This document shows, piece by piece, positions 40,829 through 50,792 of a DNA stretch of 58,003 bases. Below the pieces are notes generated by a model. The model ran no database searches and was not told the DNA's origin. It was given only the letters and a program-made list of their open reading frames with translations. This DNA comes from Bacteroidales bacterium (GTDB lineage Bacteria; Bacteroidota; Bacteroidia; Bacteroidales; UBA932), in assembly GCA_017398125.1 (NCBI GenBank), contig JAFQHE010000017.1:1-58003 (forward strand), written 5' to 3'. The translations under genes and the position numbers were made by a program. Numbering within the stretch: the first letter of the stretch is position 1; each line of letters opens with the position of its first letter.

Positions 40829-42271
40829 ATGGCATTTACAAATAATGTTATGATTGTGCGCCACAAGTTGTTGGCCACTTTGGTAAAACTTTGGAAAGAG
40901 GATTCACTGGTTAGCGGAATTGACCGTTTGCCTATAGAGCTAAGTCCTAAGAAATCAAGAGTGATGGGACGTTGTTGCATCCATAAGGAGCGTGCCGTAT
41001 GGAAATACAAATCATTTCCTCTTTTGGGTTTTGACATGACTGACGAGAAAGATGAACTGACACCTCTTTCTTACTATGCGCAACAGGCTATGGAGCGCGA
41101 CAAAAATTTGAAAGAGAATATTTTGTGCGTCATTGACGAAGCATGTTCATCTTGTGTGCAGGTCAACTACGAGGTGAGTAACCTATGTAAGGGTTGTGTT
41201 GCCAGAAGCTGTTATATGAACTGCCCTAAAGATGCCATACATTTCAACAAAAAGGGCCAGGCCGAGATTGACCATGACATCTGTATAAGTTGTGGAAAAT
41301 GTTACAAGAGCTGCCCTTACCATGCAATATTGTATATACCTGTTCCATGCGAAGATGCCTGTCCTGTAAAGGCCATCAGCAAAGATGAATATGGAATTGA
41401 GCATATTGACGAGAGCAAATGTATCTATTGCGGAAAATGTTTGAACGCGTGTCCTTTTGGTGCCATCTTTGAGATCTCACAAGTGTTTGATGTTCTCCAG
41501 AGAATCAAAGAGGGTAAAAAGGTGGTTGCAATGGTTGCTCCTGCCATTCTTGCCCAATTCAACACATCAATTGAGAATATATATGGAGCATTGAAGCAGG
41601 TAGGTTTCACTGATGTGATTGAGGTTGCCCAAGGTGCTATGGAGACTACCCGTATAGAGTCGGAGGAGTTCATTGAGAGAATGGAGGAGGGTGAGCCGTT
41701 CATGACAACCAGCTGTTGCCCTGCATATATTGAACTTTCAGAGAAACATGTTCCTGAGATAAAGAAATATATTTCAACAACAAAATCTCCTATGTACTAT
41801 ACCGGAGAGATTGTAAAGAAACAGGATCCTGAGGCATTGACTGTATTTATCGGCCCTTGTATTGCAAAGAGAAAAGAGGCCAGAAAATACCCTGAATTTG
41901 TAGACTACACACTTACATTTGAGGAGATGGGATCCATTCTTGACGGTATGGGTATAGACATCAACACCACCGAGCCATACGCAATGTCGTTCAAATCGGT
42001 TAAGGAGGCACATGGATTTGCACAAGCAGGAGGAGTAACCACTGCTGTGAAAACATATCTTGCACAGGCCAACCTTCAGGCCCTTCAGATTGCAAACCTT
42101 GACAAGAAAAATATAGGACTGTTGAAGCTTTATGCAAAAACAGGCAAGTCGCCTGCCCCATTCATTGAGGTAATGGCTTGTGAAACAGGCTGTGTTACCG
42201 GACCTTGTATCTATACCGACAAGGCTTCTTCTGTAAGACAGATTGCAGCAGAACTTAAAAAGATGGATTAA
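40829..42271 (+). CDS. Monomeric [FeFe] hydrogenase, group B-like
   Basis: 480 residues. Residues about 95-215 hold cysteine-rich ferredoxin-type motifs: DEACSSCVQVNYEVSNLC, CKGCVARSCYMNCPK, CISCGKCYKSCPYHA and CIYCGKCLNACPFGA. The H-cluster domain shows all three signature regions in altered form: TSCCPAYIELSE (L1), IGPCIAKRKEA (L2) and VMACETGCVTGPC (L3). This matches the group B monomeric hydrogenases of Bacteroidales and Clostridia, whose physiological direction is not settled. The maturases HydE, HydF and HydG are not in the window. It is monocistronic, with its own -7 box and a strong terminator. Confidence 0.88.
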   Translation: MAFTNNVMIVRHKLLATLVKLWKEDSLVSGIDRLPIELSPKKSRVMGRCCIHKERAVWKYKSFPLLGFDMTDEKDELTPLSYYAQQAMERDKNLKENILCVIDEACSSCVQVNYEVSNLCKGCVARSCYMNCPKDAIHFNKKGQAEIDHDICISCGKCYKSCPYHAILYIPVPCEDACPVKAISKDEYGIEHIDESKCIYCGKCLNACPFGAIFEISQVFDVLQRIKEGKKVVAMVAPAILAQFNTSIENIYGALKQVGFTDVIEVAQGAMETTRIESEEFIERMEEGEPFMTTSCCPAYIELSEKHVPEIKKYISTTKSPMYYTGEIVKKQDPEALTVFIGPCIAKRKEARKYPEFVDYTLTFEEMGSILDGMGIDINTTEPYAMSFKSVKEAHGFAQAGGVTTAVKTYLAQANLQALQIANLDKKNIGLLKLYAKTGKSPAPFIEVMACETGCVTGPCIYTDKASSVRQIAAELKKMD

Positions 42272-42297: not shown

Positions 42298-42330
42298 GAG
42301 GATGGCAGTAAAAACCATCCTCTTTTTATT
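42298..42330 (+). terminator. Terminator of the hydrogenase gene
   Basis: GAGGATGG (42,298-42,305) pairs with CCATCCTC (42,315-42,322) with a 9-nt loop, followed by TTTTTATTTT. It lies 27 nt after the stop codon. Confidence 0.9.
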
Positions 42331-42360
42331 TTGCAGATTAAAATTTATTACATACATTTG
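42330..42360 (+). promoter_or_regulatory. Promoter of the met/thrA/pro operon
   Basis: TTTG (42,330-42,333), 19 nt, then TACATTTG (42,353-42,360): a full consensus match. It implies a leader of about 318 nt before metY, in which a Met-rich open frame and several hairpins are found. Confidence 0.7.
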
Positions 42361-42499
42361 TTTCCGCAAATTGCTTATGCAAAGGGTTATAAAAGCCTTT
42401 AGCTTAATATAAGATTACAATTTTAACATATTTGATTATAATTTGTAAGCAAAAATGAGCTTCTACATTCATATCAATTCAATTTTGTCTTCCCAGACA

Positions 42500-42550
42500 A
42501 TGGGTGTGGGGTTCCCTATGTGTTCAATGTCTATGCGAATGCATCGCTAA
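42500..42550 (+). CDS. Methionine-rich leader peptide (candidate)
   Basis: Open frame MGVGFPMCSMSMRMHR followed by TAA: five Met in 16 codons, four of them in the last 10 (ATG at 42,518, 42,527, 42,533 and 42,539). An in-frame ATG at 42,455 would extend it to 31 residues. It lies 134 nt upstream of metY and is the only such Met cluster noticed between genes in the window. The stop codon sits in the loop of a GCATC/GATGC hairpin that is followed by CTTTTTT (42,561-42,567). By position and composition it is a leader peptide for methionine-dependent control of the operon; the mechanism is not resolved. Confidence 0.65.
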   Translation: MGVGFPMCSMSMRMHR

Positions 42551-42684
42551 GATGCTCTGTTCTTTTTTCAGGAGGATTTTCGCGGGGATAACGGAGGCCT
42601 CCATTCAAACTCAAATTTAGATAAATACAGGTCCTACAGATTCATACAATCTGTCGGGAGGAATCAATTAAAAACAGTTAAAAG
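42551..42684 (+). promoter_or_regulatory. Structured 5' leader of the met operon
   Basis: Contains the T-tract at 42,562-42,567, GGAGG (42,571-42,575) complementary to CCTCC (42,598-42,602), and a perfect 7-bp hairpin ACAGATT/AATCTGT (42,635-42,655) flanked by complementary TCCT and AGGA. No known SAM riboswitch class could be matched by eye. A TGTCGGGA octamer overlaps the last hairpin. Confidence 0.45.
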
Positions 42685-45033: not shown

Positions 45034-47526
45034 ATGCAAGTAATGAAATTTGGCGGCAGCTCAGTAGCCAACGCCCAGAACATCAATAAAGTCATTTCCA
45101 TTGTAAGGGAGGCTTTGACCAAAGACAAGACAGTTGTTGTAACTTCTGCCATAAGCGGATGCACAGACCAGCTTATTGCTATAGGCATGGCCGCTCTTGC
45201 ACAGGACAACTCTTATACCGGAATTATTGACAAATTGGAGCAGAGACACCTTGACCTGATTGATGAACTTATTGTAAATGATGACTCCAGTGCAATCAAA
45301 GAGGAGTGTGCAGCACTCTTCAATGAGTTGAGGGAGATATGCAAAGGTGTTTACCTGTTGAAGGAATTGAGCAATCTGAGCCTTGACCATATTGTAAGCT
45401 TTGGAGAGTTGCTCTCTACCAAAATCATCAGTGCAAAATTGAAATCTTTGAACATAAGCCATTTGTGGAAAGATTCAAGAGAACTTATAAAAACTGAGGA
45501 GGTTGCAGGCAAGAATGCTGTAATCACAGATGTTACAGGCAAAAATATCAAAGAGTTCTTTGAAAGCAGCTCCCACAAGCTCTATATCATGCCGGGATTC
45601 ATCGCCATGGACATGAAAGGACGTACAACCACTTTGGGACGCGGAGGATCTGACTATACCGCATCAATCATAGCTGTTGGTGTCCAGGCCCGCATTCTTG
45701 AGATATGGACAGATGTATGTGGAATGATGACAGCCGATCCACGTATCGTACCTCAGGCACATCCTATCAGAAACATCTCTTATAAGGAGGCCCTTGAGCT
45801 TTCACATTTCGGAGCCAAGGTTGTATATCCGCCAACTATCCAGCCGGTGGTAAAACAGGGAATTCCAATATATGTAAAGAATACTTTTGAGCCTTCAGAC
45901 CCGGGGACACTCATTGAGCGCAATCCACCTGAGGGAAACAATAAAATTAAAGGCATTTCAAGTTCAAACAAAATAGCCCTTCTTTCAATGGAGGGTAGCG
46001 GAATGGTGGGTATTCCAGGCTATTCAAGCAGATTGTTTGATACCCTTACAAAGAATAATGTAAACATTATACTCATTACACAAGCCTCTTCTGTGCATAC
46101 AATGTGCATTGCAATTGACGAGGCCGATGCCGACAAAGCCAAAAAGGCTACCGACGAACTCTTTGCCTATGAGATTTCATTGGGTAAGGTTGACCCATTG
46201 CGCGTAGAGAAAGGATTCTCCATCATATCACTCGTGGGTGATGACATGAAGAACCAGTCCGGTGCAAGCGGCAAAATGTTTGATGCTTTGGGACGTGAGG
46301 GAATCAATATCAGAGCCATTGCACAAGGTTCTTCGGAGAAGAATGTATCTGCAGTTGTCCAGACAGAGTATGTCAATGATGCCATCCGTGCAATCCACGA
46401 GGAGTTCTTTACCAGCAACGCACACCGTATAAATCTCTTCATAGCAGGTTATGGTACAGTGTCAAAAGCTTTGGTTCAGATCATACGTGAAAAGAGAGAT
46501 TTTCTGCTAAGGAGCTTAGGCAAAGAACTTGTTGTATGCGGCCTATGCAACAGCAGAAAATACATTCTCAACAGAAACGGAATTGAACTTGGAACAGAGG
46601 AGCAGATGCTGGCACAACTCAACGATGGGCAACCTGTACAGTCCCAATCGGCGCACAACAACTTGTATATTGAAGCTATCAGCAAGATGAAACTCAGCAA
46701 CTCAATCTTTGTTGACTGTACAGCAAGCAAGGAGATTGCAGGAACTTATGTAGACCTTTTCAGGAACAAGTTCTCAGTCGTTGCCTGCAACAAGATTGCA
46801 AACTCATTGAGCTACGACTCCTATCGCGAACTGTTCAACAACGCATTGGCCGAGGGTGTAAACTACAGATATGAAACAACCGTATGCGCAGCACAACCTG
46901 TACTGGCAATGATCAGGCAGATAATCAACAGTGGTGACCGTATCCTTAAGATTGAGGGTATAGTTAGCGGAACATTGAACTATCTGTTCAGCTGCTACAA
47001 TGCCAAAAAATCTTTTGCGACACTTGTGAAGGAGGCTAAAGAGCTGGGATATACTGAGCCCGATCCAAGGCTTGACCTGTCGGGAACCGATGTGTTGAGA
47101 AAATTCATAATCTCGGCCCGCGAAGCAGGCGAGCAGCTCGAAGGTGCAGATATTGAGTTCAAAGGCTTTGTACCGCAAAGTCTGCTACAGCCAAAAGGAG
47201 CAACATTTGCAGATGACGAGCAGGATTTCTATGCAGGACTTGAAGCAGAGGAGGCAAACCTTAAGGCAATGTATGACAATGCAGCTGCACAAGGCAAAAA
47301 ACTCCGTTTCGCAGCAACTCTTGACAAGAGCGTTGAGGGAGAAAAACCTCTCTACAGAGTCGGACTTATTGAGGTGGATTCAAGCCATCCGTTCTACTCT
47401 TTGGAGGGCAGCGACAATGCAATGCTGATCACAACAGAATATTACCCTAACGGTGTAGTGATCAAGGGTGCGGGTGCCGGTGCCCGTCAGACTGCCAGCG
47501 GTCTTCTTAACGATATATTGAAATAG
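45034..47526 (+). CDS. thrA: Bifunctional aspartate kinase / homoserine dehydrogenase
   Basis: 830 residues, the length of ThrA/MetL fusions. Aspartate kinase at about 1-290 (VMKFGGSSVANAQN, TTLGRGGSDYTASI), ACT regulatory repeats at about 310-450 (IALLSMEGSGMVG, FSIISLVGDDMKNQSGA), and homoserine dehydrogenase at about 465-830 (NLFIAGYGTVSKALV for NAD(P) binding, GIVSGTLNYLF, DLSGTDVLRKF). It supplies the first and third steps from aspartate to homoserine. Whether it is inhibited by threonine or methionine cannot be read from the sequence; its place in a Met-leader operon argues for methionine-related control of expression. The symbol follows common Bacteroidota usage. Confidence 0.95.
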   Translation: MQVMKFGGSSVANAQNINKVISIVREALTKDKTVVVTSAISGCTDQLIAIGMAALAQDNSYTGIIDKLEQRHLDLIDELIVNDDSSAIKEECAALFNELREICKGVYLLKELSNLSLDHIVSFGELLSTKIISAKLKSLNISHLWKDSRELIKTEEVAGKNAVITDVTGKNIKEFFESSSHKLYIMPGFIAMDMKGRTTTLGRGGSDYTASIIAVGVQARILEIWTDVCGMMTADPRIVPQAHPIRNISYKEALELSHFGAKVVYPPTIQPVVKQGIPIYVKNTFEPSDPGTLIERNPPEGNNKIKGISSSNKIALLSMEGSGMVGIPGYSSRLFDTLTKNNVNIILITQASSVHTMCIAIDEADADKAKKATDELFAYEISLGKVDPLRVEKGFSIISLVGDDMKNQSGASGKMFDALGREGINIRAIAQGSSEKNVSAVVQTEYVNDAIRAIHEEFFTSNAHRINLFIAGYGTVSKALVQIIREKRDFLLRSLGKELVVCGLCNSRKYILNRNGIELGTEEQMLAQLNDGQPVQSQSAHNNLYIEAISKMKLSNSIFVDCTASKEIAGTYVDLFRNKFSVVACNKIANSLSYDSYRELFNNALAEGVNYRYETTVCAAQPVLAMIRQIINSGDRILKIEGIVSGTLNYLFSCYNAKKSFATLVKEAKELGYTEPDPRLDLSGTDVLRKFIISAREAGEQLEGADIEFKGFVPQSLLQPKGATFADDEQDFYAGLEAEEANLKAMYDNAAAQGKKLRFAATLDKSVEGEKPLYRVGLIEVDSSHPFYSLEGSDNAMLITTEYYPNGVVIKGAGAGARQTASGLLNDILK

Positions 47527-47588: not shown

Positions 47589-48740
47589 ATGAAAGTAGCA
47601 GTAGTGGGAGCAACAGGACTGGTAGGCTCCAAAATGTTAAAAGTCCTAGAAGAGAGAGATTTTCCAATCAGTGAACTTATACCTGTAGCATCAGCAAGAT
47701 CTAAGGGTAAAAAGGTGTCGTTCAAAGGAAAAGAGTATGAAGTTGTAACTCCTGAGGAGGCAATTGGTATGAAACCTGTTCTTGCAATCTTTTCGGCAGG
47801 AAGCGATGCCTCAAAGGTGTATGCACCTGAATTTGCCAAAGCAGGATGCAGGGTAGTTGACAACTCAGCATGCTGGAGAATGGATCCCGATAAAAAACTT
47901 GTAATTCCGGAGATAAATGGTGATGTGATTGGCAAGGATGATATGATTATTGCAAACCCAAACTGTTCTACAATACAGATGCTTGTTGCAATAGCCGACC
48001 TGCACAAGAAATACAGGATCAAGAGAATTGTAGTCTCTACTTACCAATGTATTACAGGTACTGGACAAAAGGCTGTTGACCAACTTGTTGAGGAGAGAAA
48101 GAGATGGAAAGGCATTGAAGAGAACATTATTGGCGGAGAATACAAGTGCGCATATCCATACCAGATTGACCTTAACATGTTGCCTCATATCGACAAGTTC
48201 CTTGAGAACGGATATACCAAAGAGGAGATGAAGATGGTAAATGAGACCCGTAAGATTATGAGGGATGACAGCATCAAGGTATCTCCTACTGCAGTCAGAA
48301 TACCAGTATTGGGCGGCCACGCAGAGTCAATCAACCTTGAGTTTGAAAAGCCTTTTGATGAGAAGGAGGTAGTGGAGATTTTGAGAAACACTCCGGGTGT
48401 TGCAGTAATTGACAATGTTGCGCCAAACGGTGATGAGCAGAATCCTGCAATTGGAGAGGAGAGTGTAAAGGAGGCCTGCCGAAAGGGCAAGAACGCAAAC
48501 AAAGGTGCCATTGACAAATCGGCCAAAGCAGCTGAATTTGCCCAATTGCAGCAACTTCCATATCCAATGCCACTCTACTCAGAGGAGAGGGATGAGGTAT
48601 TTGTAGGCAGAATCAGAAGGGATCCAAGCCTTGAGAATGGCTTGAACCTATGGTGTGTAGCCGACAATCTAAGAAAAGGTGCAGCTACAAATGCTGTCCA
48701 GATTGCCGAATTGCTTTACAAGAAAGGATTCATAGCGTAA
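47589..48740 (+). CDS. asd: Aspartate-semialdehyde dehydrogenase
   Basis: Second step of the aspartate pathway. 383 residues, longer than the roughly 340-residue Gram-negative form owing to an insertion around 165-215 (EERKRWKGIEENIIGGEYKC). NADP-binding VGATGLVGSKMLKVLEER at the N-terminus, the catalytic cysteine in NPNCSTIQMLVAI, and GGHAESINLEFEKPF with the conserved His. With the upstream fusion it completes the set from aspartate to homoserine. It lies 62 nt after thrA and 22 nt before proB. Confidence 0.94.
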   Translation: MKVAVVGATGLVGSKMLKVLEERDFPISELIPVASARSKGKKVSFKGKEYEVVTPEEAIGMKPVLAIFSAGSDASKVYAPEFAKAGCRVVDNSACWRMDPDKKLVIPEINGDVIGKDDMIIANPNCSTIQMLVAIADLHKKYRIKRIVVSTYQCITGTGQKAVDQLVEERKRWKGIEENIIGGEYKCAYPYQIDLNMLPHIDKFLENGYTKEEMKMVNETRKIMRDDSIKVSPTAVRIPVLGGHAESINLEFEKPFDEKEVVEILRNTPGVAVIDNVAPNGDEQNPAIGEESVKEACRKGKNANKGAIDKSAKAAEFAQLQQLPYPMPLYSEERDEVFVGRIRRDPSLENGLNLWCVADNLRKGAATNAVQIAELLYKKGFIA

Positions 48741-48762: not shown

Positions 48763-49539
48763 ATGAAACGTATAGCCGTAAAGGTCGGGAGCAATGTTTT
48801 GACTCGTCCCGACGGAACACTTGATGTTACCCGTATGTCGGCAATCGTTGACCAGTTGGCCGCTCTGCACAAACGCGGAATGGAGGTTATTCTGGTATCA
48901 TCCGGCGCTGTGGCTTCGGGCCGCAGCGAAATCAAGATGAACCATACGCTTGATGAGGTCTCTTCACGCCAACTCTATTCTGCCATAGGGCAGGCCAAAC
49001 TTATGGGCAAATACTACACCATGTTCCGCGAGCATAGCATAATCTGCGGTCAGGTACTTACCACAAAGGAGGGGCTTGACAAGGCTGACCACTACAGCAA
49101 CCAGCAGAACTGTATGGAGGTTATGCTCAAAGAGGGTGTTGTGCCTATCATAAACGAAAACGATACGCTCTCCATCACTGAGCTGATGTTTACCGACAAT
49201 GATGAGCTGTCGGGTATTATGGCTGAAATGATGGGGGTTGATTTGCTGATTCTATTGAGCAATATTGACGGAATATACAATGGCAATCCCCAGGATCCGC
49301 AGAGTACTGTAATACGCAGGGTTCATCCTGCTTCTGAGGATATGTCCCAATATATTCAGGCAGGAAAATCTGCTTTCGGACGTGGAGGTATGGTTACAAA
49401 GTCACGCATTGCAAGTAGTGTAGCCGGCAAAGGGATCCCTGTTGTTATAGCCAACGGACGCAAAGAGGATATTATTCTCAAATTGATTGACAACCCTGAA
49501 GATACCATCTGCACCAGATTTGAACCCTTAAATATCTGA
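48763..49539 (+). CDS. proB: Glutamate 5-kinase
   Basis: First step of proline synthesis, 258 residues. It is the short form: amino acid kinase domain only, without the C-terminal PUA domain of the E. coli enzyme. Motifs: [14 protein letters not shown] at the N-terminus, [33 protein letters not shown], and a [13 protein letters not shown] nucleotide-binding segment. It is only 2 nt upstream of proA. Confidence 0.95.
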
Positions 49540-49541
49540 AA

Positions 49542-50792
49542 ATGACTCTCCAGAAAATGATAGAGATGAGTTCCAGGTCTGCCCTGGGACTCGTTTCGCT
49601 TACCGACGACAAAATAAATTCAATTCTCATTGACACAGCCCGTGCCCTTCGCAACGGAAGCTGTTCAATTATAGAAGCCAATGCACTTGACCTTGAACGC
49701 ATGGACAAGGCCAATCCAAAGTATGACCGCCTCAAACTTACAGAAGAGAGGATATGCGCCATAGCAGATGATATGGAGCATGTGGCGACTCTTCCCTCCC
49801 CTCTTGGCAGAATCCTGGAGAGTTATACAAGGCCGAATGGAATGAAAATAAGCAAAACAACTGTCCCATTCGGAGTTATTGGTGTAATTTACGAAGCTCG
49901 GCCCAATGTAACTGCAGATGTCTTTTCTCTTTGTCTGAAGAGTGGCAACGCCTCTCTTCTTAAAGGTGGTTCAGATGCGGAGTATTCCAACCGCAGAATA
50001 GTTGGAATCATCCATGAGGTGCTTGCATCCCATAATGTGAATACCGGTGTATGCACACTCCTGCCCTCAAGCAGGGAAGCCACTGCACAACTGCTCAATG
50101 CAGTTGGATTGGTTGACCTCATCATACCCAGAGGCAGCAGCCAACTGATAAACTACGTGCGCCAGAACTCCAGAGTACCGGTAATCGAGACCGGAGCCGG
50201 CATTTGCCACACATATTTTGATATATCAGGAAGTGTGGAAAAGGGATGTGCAATTATTGAAAATGCCAAGACAAGACGTGTAAGTGTGTGCAATGCGCTT
50301 GATTCTCTCGTTATACATAAAGAGCGTCTGTGTGATCTGCCTGCACTATGTTTGCCTTTGGCAGGAAAAAACGTACTCATTTACGCCGACAGGCAGGCTT
50401 ATAACGCACTTGCAGGCCATTATCCCGACAAACTTCTGCAACCCGCAACAGAGGGCCATTATGGGACAGAGTTCCTTGACTATAAGATGAGCATCAGAAC
50501 TGTCGGGAGTATTGATGAAGCTCTTGCCCATATTGCAAAATACAGTTCAAGGCACAGCGAGTGTATTATTGCCGACGATCCTGCTTCAATCAAGCGTTTT
50601 CAGCGGGAGGTTGATGCGGCCTGCGTATATGCCAATGTATCTACAGCCTTCACCGATGGTGCACAATTCGGTTTTGGGGCAGAAATTGGCATCTCGACCC
50701 AAAAACTGCATGCAAGAGGTCCTATGGCCCTGGCTGAACTCACCACCTACAAATATCTCATTGAGGGTGACGGACAGATTCGTTGCCAATAA
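49542..50792 (+). CDS. proA: Glutamate-5-semialdehyde dehydrogenase (gamma-glutamyl phosphate reductase)
   Basis: Reduces the ProB product to glutamate-5-semialdehyde. 416 residues, aldehyde dehydrogenase fold. Visible are [18 protein letters not shown] near residue 105, [27 protein letters not shown], and the catalytic cysteine in [12 protein letters not shown] near 250. Last gene of the metY-metX-thrA-asd-proB-proA unit. No convincing terminator was seen before the next promoter at 50,819. Confidence 0.95.

Follow-up and report, generated by a model that had tools for sequence, protein, structure and literature searches.

The 58,003-nucleotide stretch analysed here (contig JAFQHE010000017.1, numbered C10 here, from a Bacteroidales genome of 2.2 Mb; hereafter the window) carries a metY-metX-thrA-asd-proB-proA operon, preceded by a leader that contains a short methionine-rich open reading frame (ORF). 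From comparison with relatives in one family, which we take to be UBA932, we consider it fairly probable that this leader attenuates the metX/metY operon in cis, with the ribosome as its reader. The short leader would be translated; when methionyl-tRNA is short the ribosome would stall on the leader Met codons, and when methionine is ample it would pass the Arg-Met-His-Arg (RMHR) ending to the stop codon and depart. In Cryptobacteroides-like leaders, in g28 and in part of g218, leader codons are complementary to the site where translation of metX/metY starts; a ribosome positioned on these codons would expose the start and allow the genes to be translated, and the duplex would close once the ribosome has departed. 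The hairpin over the last codons and the stop may stabilise the closed form of a ribosome-free leader, or set the pace of translation. For at least two species of the genus to which the window belongs, an intrinsic terminator looks like the output instead. The signal would be methionyl-tRNA, rather than methionine or S-adenosylmethionine (SAM) acting on the nascent peptide, and metX/metY are probably switched on at methionine shortage. We put forward more tentatively, as something we would sooner doubt than assert, that the leader Met codons are both sensor and switch throughout the family, with the codons that report Met-tRNA forming the start-blocking strand, the stop-codon hairpin acting as reset, and the output varying by genus (start blocking, termination, or a third way in the window's species).

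A conserved methionine-rich leader frame

The earlier note on this DNA had described a frame ending in MCSMSMRMHR and a stop. This frame is present, with its TAA stop codon at 42548-42550 (Table 1), and the choice of start has to be revised: relatives place the homologous ATG earlier in frame, at 42455-42457, and the two ATGs considered in the note (42500 and 42518) fall inside a 31-residue leader, which holds six methionines, the start included. The conserved Met-rich short frame before metX/metY that the note proposed to look for was found in 14 of the 21 genera sampled, or 13 without the doubtful g221.

Eighty leaders, taken from 88 distinct core regions, were used for coding counts. The thirteen omitted are L165, L167, L168, L169 and L179 (replaced by the longer copies L259, L261, L262, L263 and L268), L093 (contig end), and L084, L120, L203, L207, L215, L240 and L243 (diverged, or with an unresolved start or promoter); L087, L094, L119 and L121, which come from outside Bacteroidales and matched no met gene, and L115, at a contig end, had been left out earlier. 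From start to core the frame is open in all 80 distinct leaders, compared with 6 and 60 for the other two frames, although about 20 of the 80 were found via an ORF-plus-motif filter that fixes the open frame by construction. Internal ATG codons make up 197 of 1351 codons in frame versus 5 and 3 for the two alternative frames, and base shuffling gives 22.3 +/- 4.3 (maximum 37 in 300 shuffles). The other leaders, about 60, were found via a DNA core pattern, which fixes the core codons (RMHR) by construction, and the counts of CGA (77/80) and CAT (75/80) are inflated by the search pattern. Judged by its evolution, translation of the leader frame is supported.

The fold of the whole leader is no better than chance (z -1.15; 11 of 100 shuffles equally good), and the evidence for the leader is therefore comparative. 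This ordinary fold would suit a chance short frame without function, which the window alone is insufficient to exclude; conservation within the genus, in the collection scan and in the coding counts refutes it, and we give this explanation practically no weight.

An exact scan for CGAATGCATCGYYAAGATGC across a collection of 84,980 genomes returned 61 stretches, three of which are repeats of another; they include Candidatus Cryptobacteroides and Candidatus Egerieousia. The first match to an operon protein is metX or metY in 56 of the 61, beginning 88-247 bases from the core. Of the other five, one ends at a contig end and four lie in unrelated bacteria (two Pseudogulbenkiania, a Clostridia bacterium and a Ruminococcus) without a match to a protein of the window's operon. 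Within the genus, the 23-base ATG plus core, with at most 3 mismatches, occurs in 17 of 39 genomes (own included), always as one copy per genome, and is present in all 14 genomes with a close MetY (E <= 1e-150). When 61 genomes were searched at the DNA level, G017 alone matched over the full window leader (84%); the other matches are mostly 24-54 bases at the end of the peptide, with few elsewhere. Taken together, a Met-rich leader peptide specific to metX/metY operons is supported on this comparison.

Wider searches added little. The pattern ATGMGNATGCAYMGNTRR was found in 14 of 393 genomes of the order, own included, versus 6 for the reversed control, and MGNATGCAYMGNYARGAYGC in 5 of 393, namely the own genome, one family member and three inside other genes. 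Model R1, run with stricter filters, matched 4 of 295 genomes, of which two belong to the family, one has its match within a lipoprotein-like gene and one just before rpsL (genes named by eye). No genuine copy was seen outside the one Bacteroidales family; no metX-anchored search was made outside it, so that a differently worded Met leader there would be missed. Inside the family, a metX-anchored sample of 100 metX places gave 52 with the leader and 5 cut; doubtful among the positives are g221 (twice), L188 and L203.

The core hairpin and the peptide ending

The end of the frame and the five bases behind it form a conserved core with a hairpin that holds the stop codon in its loop. In an alignment of 47 leaders (A1, with the 3' arm of L203, and perhaps of L240, put in the wrong place by MAFFT), the core helix is 89.7% paired compared with 14-43% when slid, and exceeds all of 500 shuffles on each measure. 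The helix is mostly invariant, with a shuffled pairing of 88.5%, and two pairs alone change on both sides, in one sequence each, a point to be counted with those weighed against the attenuator below. Since most pairs barely vary, it is the unusual arm variants that carry the argument: L244 has GCAAC/GTTGC, a compensating change that converts His to Gln (RMQR), GCATCG/CGATGC with shifted loops occurs in g218 and g27 (L238, L223), and the doubtful leader L203 has GCGCC/GGCGC. Loops among relatives have 4, 5 or more bases; those of g28 have four, and there the leader reads on beyond RMHR. On these variants, the core hairpin is an element that acts as RNA. CGAAUG is also conserved 5' of the stem, outside what the hairpin pairing accounts for. 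The earlier note's hairpin with the stop in its loop and a T-run behind it is present, as a structure that is no canonical terminator, with seven bases separating stem and T-run; it is one of 3 terminator-like sites in 2 kb, where 1.7 are expected.

A perfect inverted repeat, GCATC-N5-GATGC, in a single copy in each of the 17 bearing genus genomes, would also be expected of a DNA operator bound by a dimeric repressor. However, the spacer length is not constant (4 to 7 bases, or longer) and a change in one arm goes with a change in the other, which disfavours such an operator, and the palindrome lies inside a conserved reading frame at a variable distance from the promoter. We hold this explanation to be very improbable.

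An arrest peptide would give the ending a different role. TnaC, which with SpeFL exemplifies this type, responds to tryptophan; here the nascent chain ...M-S-K/M-R-M-H-R would stall the ribosome upon methionine or SAM, and the stall at the leader end would set the RNA structure. The RMHR ending does recur across leaders of 14 to 49 codons, preceded by M in 55 and K in 22 of the 80 (K or M in 77), with S before that residue in 43. Across the genus the C-terminal residues and the stop position are fixed (stop exceptions in G002 and G430), the codons CGA-ATG-CAT-CGY are kept in all 14 MetY-bearing genomes, and in most leaders the stop follows directly after the ending. The sample leans to RMHR, however, since the exact core brought in about 60 of the 80 leaders and the motif filter the others. 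Moreover, the ending varies while the hairpin stays (RMQR in L244, RMRR/RMRL/RMRI in g224, RMHL in L195 and L206), several groups continue past RMHR (QDA, KMLA, SSMHGFLFCR), and the enrichment of upstream Met codons would need a separate reason. Nascent-chain arrest therefore appears unlikely to us, if worth keeping in mind.

Conversely, the reading frame could be incidental to a structured RNA whose hairpin serves as the binding site of a protein or small ligand. Conservation in the core extends past the codons to bases after the stop: in the 14 MetY-bearing genus genomes the core differs in two loop pyrimidines only, plus bases before CGA in G430. Cryptobacteroides-like leaders furthermore have a second covarying hairpin about 40 bases after the core, with a loop that is mostly [AG]GGAU. 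Against this stand the frame that stays open in all 80 leaders, the Met excess confined to that frame and the lack of any Rfam match at threshold. CsrA favours GGAU-type loops, and a CsrA reading of the second hairpin was considered and rejected, since CsrA was found in none of the 39 family genomes searched. A purely structural RNA is in our view distinctly improbable. The earlier note had named an unconserved frame beside a conserved structured RNA as evidence against its proposal; the outcome is ambiguous on that point, as both the short frame and the hairpin are conserved.

Candidate regulatory outputs and the case against attenuation

Returning to the ribosome-read attenuator, one candidate output is pairing of leader codons with the start of metX/metY. 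In Cryptobacteroides-like leaders the codons I7-S8-M9-M10, e.g., TCATATCAATGA, have a complement of 9-12 bases immediately ahead of the metX start or at the start itself. One leader-start duplex is CATATCAATGA with TCATTGATATG. Three close g218 leaders have a different sequence, TGAATATTTCAG, matched by its own complement, and in g28 a run of Met codons, ATGATGATG, is matched by ATCATCATC before metY. Leader/downstream complementarity of at least 9 nucleotides occurs in 24 of the 80 leaders, and in 23 of these it begins 5-22 bases before the start codon. An earlier version of this count gave 21 of 74, with 4.3 expected from permuted starts (the 74-leader set omits five leaders and one without a gene start). 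No complementary run of 7 was seen in 22 of the 80, the window among them.

Covariation was assessed by permutation in groups of 29, 11, 15 and 9 of the 80 leaders. For the 29 Cryptobacteroides-like/g27 leaders (11 from records named Cryptobacteroides), the leaders' own leader-start duplexes beat the permuted ones, with 0 of 5000 permutations as good. The 11 g28/g216 leaders gave 3 of 5000, and 0 of 5000 on repetition. Two control regions were negative, the result was unchanged with 26 representatives, and a joint set of 66 leaders gave 0 of 5000. A ribosome-masking model was applied to 22 chosen leaders. For the 10 of these that belong to the pairing groups, opening the start is predicted to cost 8.0-12.9 kcal/mol without a ribosome and 2.1-6.1 kcal/mol with one at the best position; these figures have no shuffled control beside them. 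With the ribosome at the last codon, the modelled cost is 8.4-14.0 kcal/mol in L109, L122, L182, L238, L071 and L142. It is thus supported, on pairing and modelling, that leader codons form a strand able to cover the metX/metY start in g28 (the Met run) and in Cryptobacteroides-like leaders (Ile-Ser-Met-Met), an arrangement that would fit sensing by ribosome progress.

Position 7 of the leader (within 42470-42475 in the window) is Ile in 69 of the 80, with the codon ATA in 56, and CATA stands at a constant 17 (53/80) or 15 (12/80) bases from the start codon despite the variable leader length. Start pairing could explain this conservation in some genera only.

A second candidate output is transcription termination. 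Clear intrinsic terminators (-19.0 kcal/mol and a T-run) are present in L044 and L083, closely related members of the window's genus. L114, L097, L117 and L108 have weak ones that may be organised as 1:2/2:3/3:4. At -12 kcal/mol or below, a hairpin with T-run occurs in 7 of the 80 leaders versus 0 of 240 shuffles, L044 and L083 being the only ones of the seven from the window's genus. At weaker cut-offs, the counts among the 80 (among the 240 shuffles in brackets) are 15 (23) at -6, 12 (14) at -8 and 10 (8) at -10. An intrinsic terminator as general output was rejected, and so was start pairing, which is absent in the window's genus and in g225. With start pairing in two groups, terminators in L044 and L083, and neither in the window, the sensor seems to be shared and the output to differ between genera. 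In the genome of L044 (G034, a single contig), leader and terminator are intact and metY is disrupted by frame changes, reflecting a pseudogene or an assembly error.

Several further observations weigh against the attenuator. The leader is missing at 43 of the 100 metX places, L105, L176 and L195 have one or two internal Met codons before RMHR only, and the paired codons of g218 include no internal Met. No leader-start covariation was detected in the window's genus (15 leaders including the window; 4456 of 5000 permutations as good) or in g225 (9 leaders; 1623 of 5000). In the model, masking the window's leader does nothing to open its start, which costs 2.4 kcal/mol both with the leader free and at the best ribosome position, the gain is no more than 1.4 kcal/mol in the 11 further leaders modelled from outside the pairing groups, and with the ribosome at the last codon the cost is only 4.7-6.3 kcal/mol in L106, L263, L196 and L261, where the start remains fairly open. 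Helpful ribosome positions in Cryptobacteroides-like leaders extend over about codons 2-14, most of the ORF and beyond the Met codons; because of this we set our confidence slightly lower both in the attenuator and in the family-wide sensor-plus-switch proposal. Finally, 65 of the 80 leaders have no recognisable terminator, and no strong one was found in the window leader.

Locus and relation to known systems

The features of the window are collected in Table 1. The operon proposed in the earlier note agrees with the gene families matched, metX falling below its curated cut-off. The promoter it described is also there in the sequence and predicts a leader of about 318 bases upstream of metY, with a transcript start expected near 42367. 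A second, looser box, TATAATTTG, lies at 42437-42445. Boxes similar to the window promoter (TACTTTTG/TAATTTTG) precede the leader ORF in L105, L075 and L085, and a promoter-like box ends 4-47 bases before the start codon in 76 of the 88 core regions under a permissive TAnnTTTG pattern that has no chance control; in the remaining 12 the sequence is short or no such box was seen.

Table 1. Coordinates of the leader, the operon and associated features in the window
Feature	Position	Strand	Basis
Bacteroides-type promoter: TTTG 42330-42333, N19 spacer, TACATTTG 42353-42360	42330..42360	+	Sequence; known consensus
Leader ORF, 31 codons + TAA, MSFYIHINSILSSQTMGVGFPMCSMSMRMHR*	42455..42550	+	Start, frame and ending matched in relatives
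Conserved core CGAATGCATCGCTAAGATGC, codons R-M-H-R-stop + 5 bases (CGAAT-GCATC-GCTAA-GATGC)	42536..42555	+	Genus and exact collection scans
Core hairpin GCATC-GCTAA-GATGC, stop codon in loop	42541..42555	+	Pairing maintained through several sequence changes in relatives
Pyrimidine-rich tract TCTGTTCTTTTTTC after core hairpin	42556..42569	+	Sequence; by eye, many relatives have a comparable tract
Possible second hairpin, AGGAGG 42570-42575 / CCTCC 42598-42602, no T-run behind	42570..42602	+	Sequence; also in close relative G017 (L101)
Putative hairpin CAGATT-CATAC-AATCTG upstream of metY	42637..42653	+	Sequence
metY, O-acetylhomoserine aminocarboxypropyltransferase, 425 aa	42685..43962	+	NCBIfam TIGR01326 above cut-off
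metX, homoserine O-acetyltransferase-like, 348 aa	43974..45020	+	NCBIfam TIGR01392, 2.5e-94, below curated cut-off
thrA-type bifunctional aspartate kinase/homoserine dehydrogenase	45034..47526	+	NF006959 above cut-off
asd, aspartate-semialdehyde dehydrogenase	47589..48740	+	NF011456/TIGR01296 above cut-off
proB 48763-49539 and proA 49542-50792	48763..50792	+	TIGR01027 and NF001221 above cut-off

Upstream of the leader lies a gene for a monomeric [FeFe] hydrogenase (40829-42271), for which the hairpin GAGGATGG...CCATCCTC and following T-run (42298-42332) is a likely terminator; by eye, hydrogenase gene sequence also precedes the leader in L003, L008, L012 and L013. A CTGTCGSGA element (42651-42659 in the window) recurs before metY in several leaders of the window's genus (L044, L083, L080 and L101), often in a hairpin (by eye).

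The earlier note had seen by eye no match to a SAM riboswitch in the leader, and at the Rfam 15 gathering score neither SAM nor any other family is matched in the window. At a loose threshold, the window gives 23 sub-threshold matches, mostly on the terminator of the upstream gene; the best, ncr1015 (36.3 bits, cut-off 60, E 0.0011), lies on the minus strand over that terminator. The SAM-I riboswitch (S-box, RF00162) controls met genes in other bacteria, but gave no match in the window or in 19 of 20 loci scanned, these 19 having been picked for the most part because the leader motif was missing. In L243 (genome G434), a SAM-I riboswitch at 651-756 (63.9 bits) stands directly before MTSYILHSFINTIHVGRMRA, a diverged leader ORF of metY, and this tandem suggests that SAM and the leader signal are possibly separate inputs.

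In the trp, his, thr and ilv transcription attenuators, the leader peptide is rich in the regulated amino acid and the stop lies in the loop of a 1:2-like hairpin. The leaders described here share a product-rich peptide, a stop in a hairpin loop and, in some species, terminators; they differ in being mostly without a recognisable terminator, in the amino acid, methionine, and in an output that looks translational in two groups. In the translational attenuators of ermC and cat, a ribosome stalled on the leader by an antibiotic signal frees the start of the next gene. A stalled leader ribosome would likewise free a start here, but the signal would be a missing aminoacyl-tRNA, and the leader codons themselves would be the blocking strand.

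The closest described design is the LEU element of Actinobacteria, a comparative prediction in which a run of Leu codons pairs with the leuA Shine-Dalgarno box (PMC1262725). A run of end-product codons that can pair with the start region was also seen here for the Met codons of g28, and not in the window; the LEU element concerns leucine, another phylum and a pseudoknot, whereas the window leader concerns methionine and has a hairpin over the stop codon. The LEU paper is sceptical of sensing by codons and favours a protein that binds; it also places methionine under S-boxes in other species, and reports no conserved RNA structure before Met operons of Actinobacteria (PMC1262725). Methionine synthesis in Staphylococcus aureus is governed by a tRNA-Met T-box, which likewise takes tRNA-Met as signal for methionine synthesis genes, but by direct binding of the tRNA to RNA and with no leader peptide (PMC3771891). 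Leader-like short ORFs in Bacteroides thetaiotaomicron are mentioned in general terms in another paper (PMC7366714). No methionine-codon leader peptide was found in the literature, as judged by title and the start of the abstract, with subscription journals thinly covered.

To our knowledge, methionine synthesis is the classic example of control by riboswitches, T-boxes and repressors rather than by leader peptides. This gap would be filled by a conserved Met-codon leader, which would also raise the question of how the initiator and elongator Met-tRNA pools are told apart. Covarying pairing between codons and start would be a compact design, with coding sequence and regulatory strand in one. 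For genome annotation, CGAAUG followed by the hairpin offers a motif that is unmatched by Rfam 15 at threshold, and a largely uncultured gut family would gain a testable control circuit.
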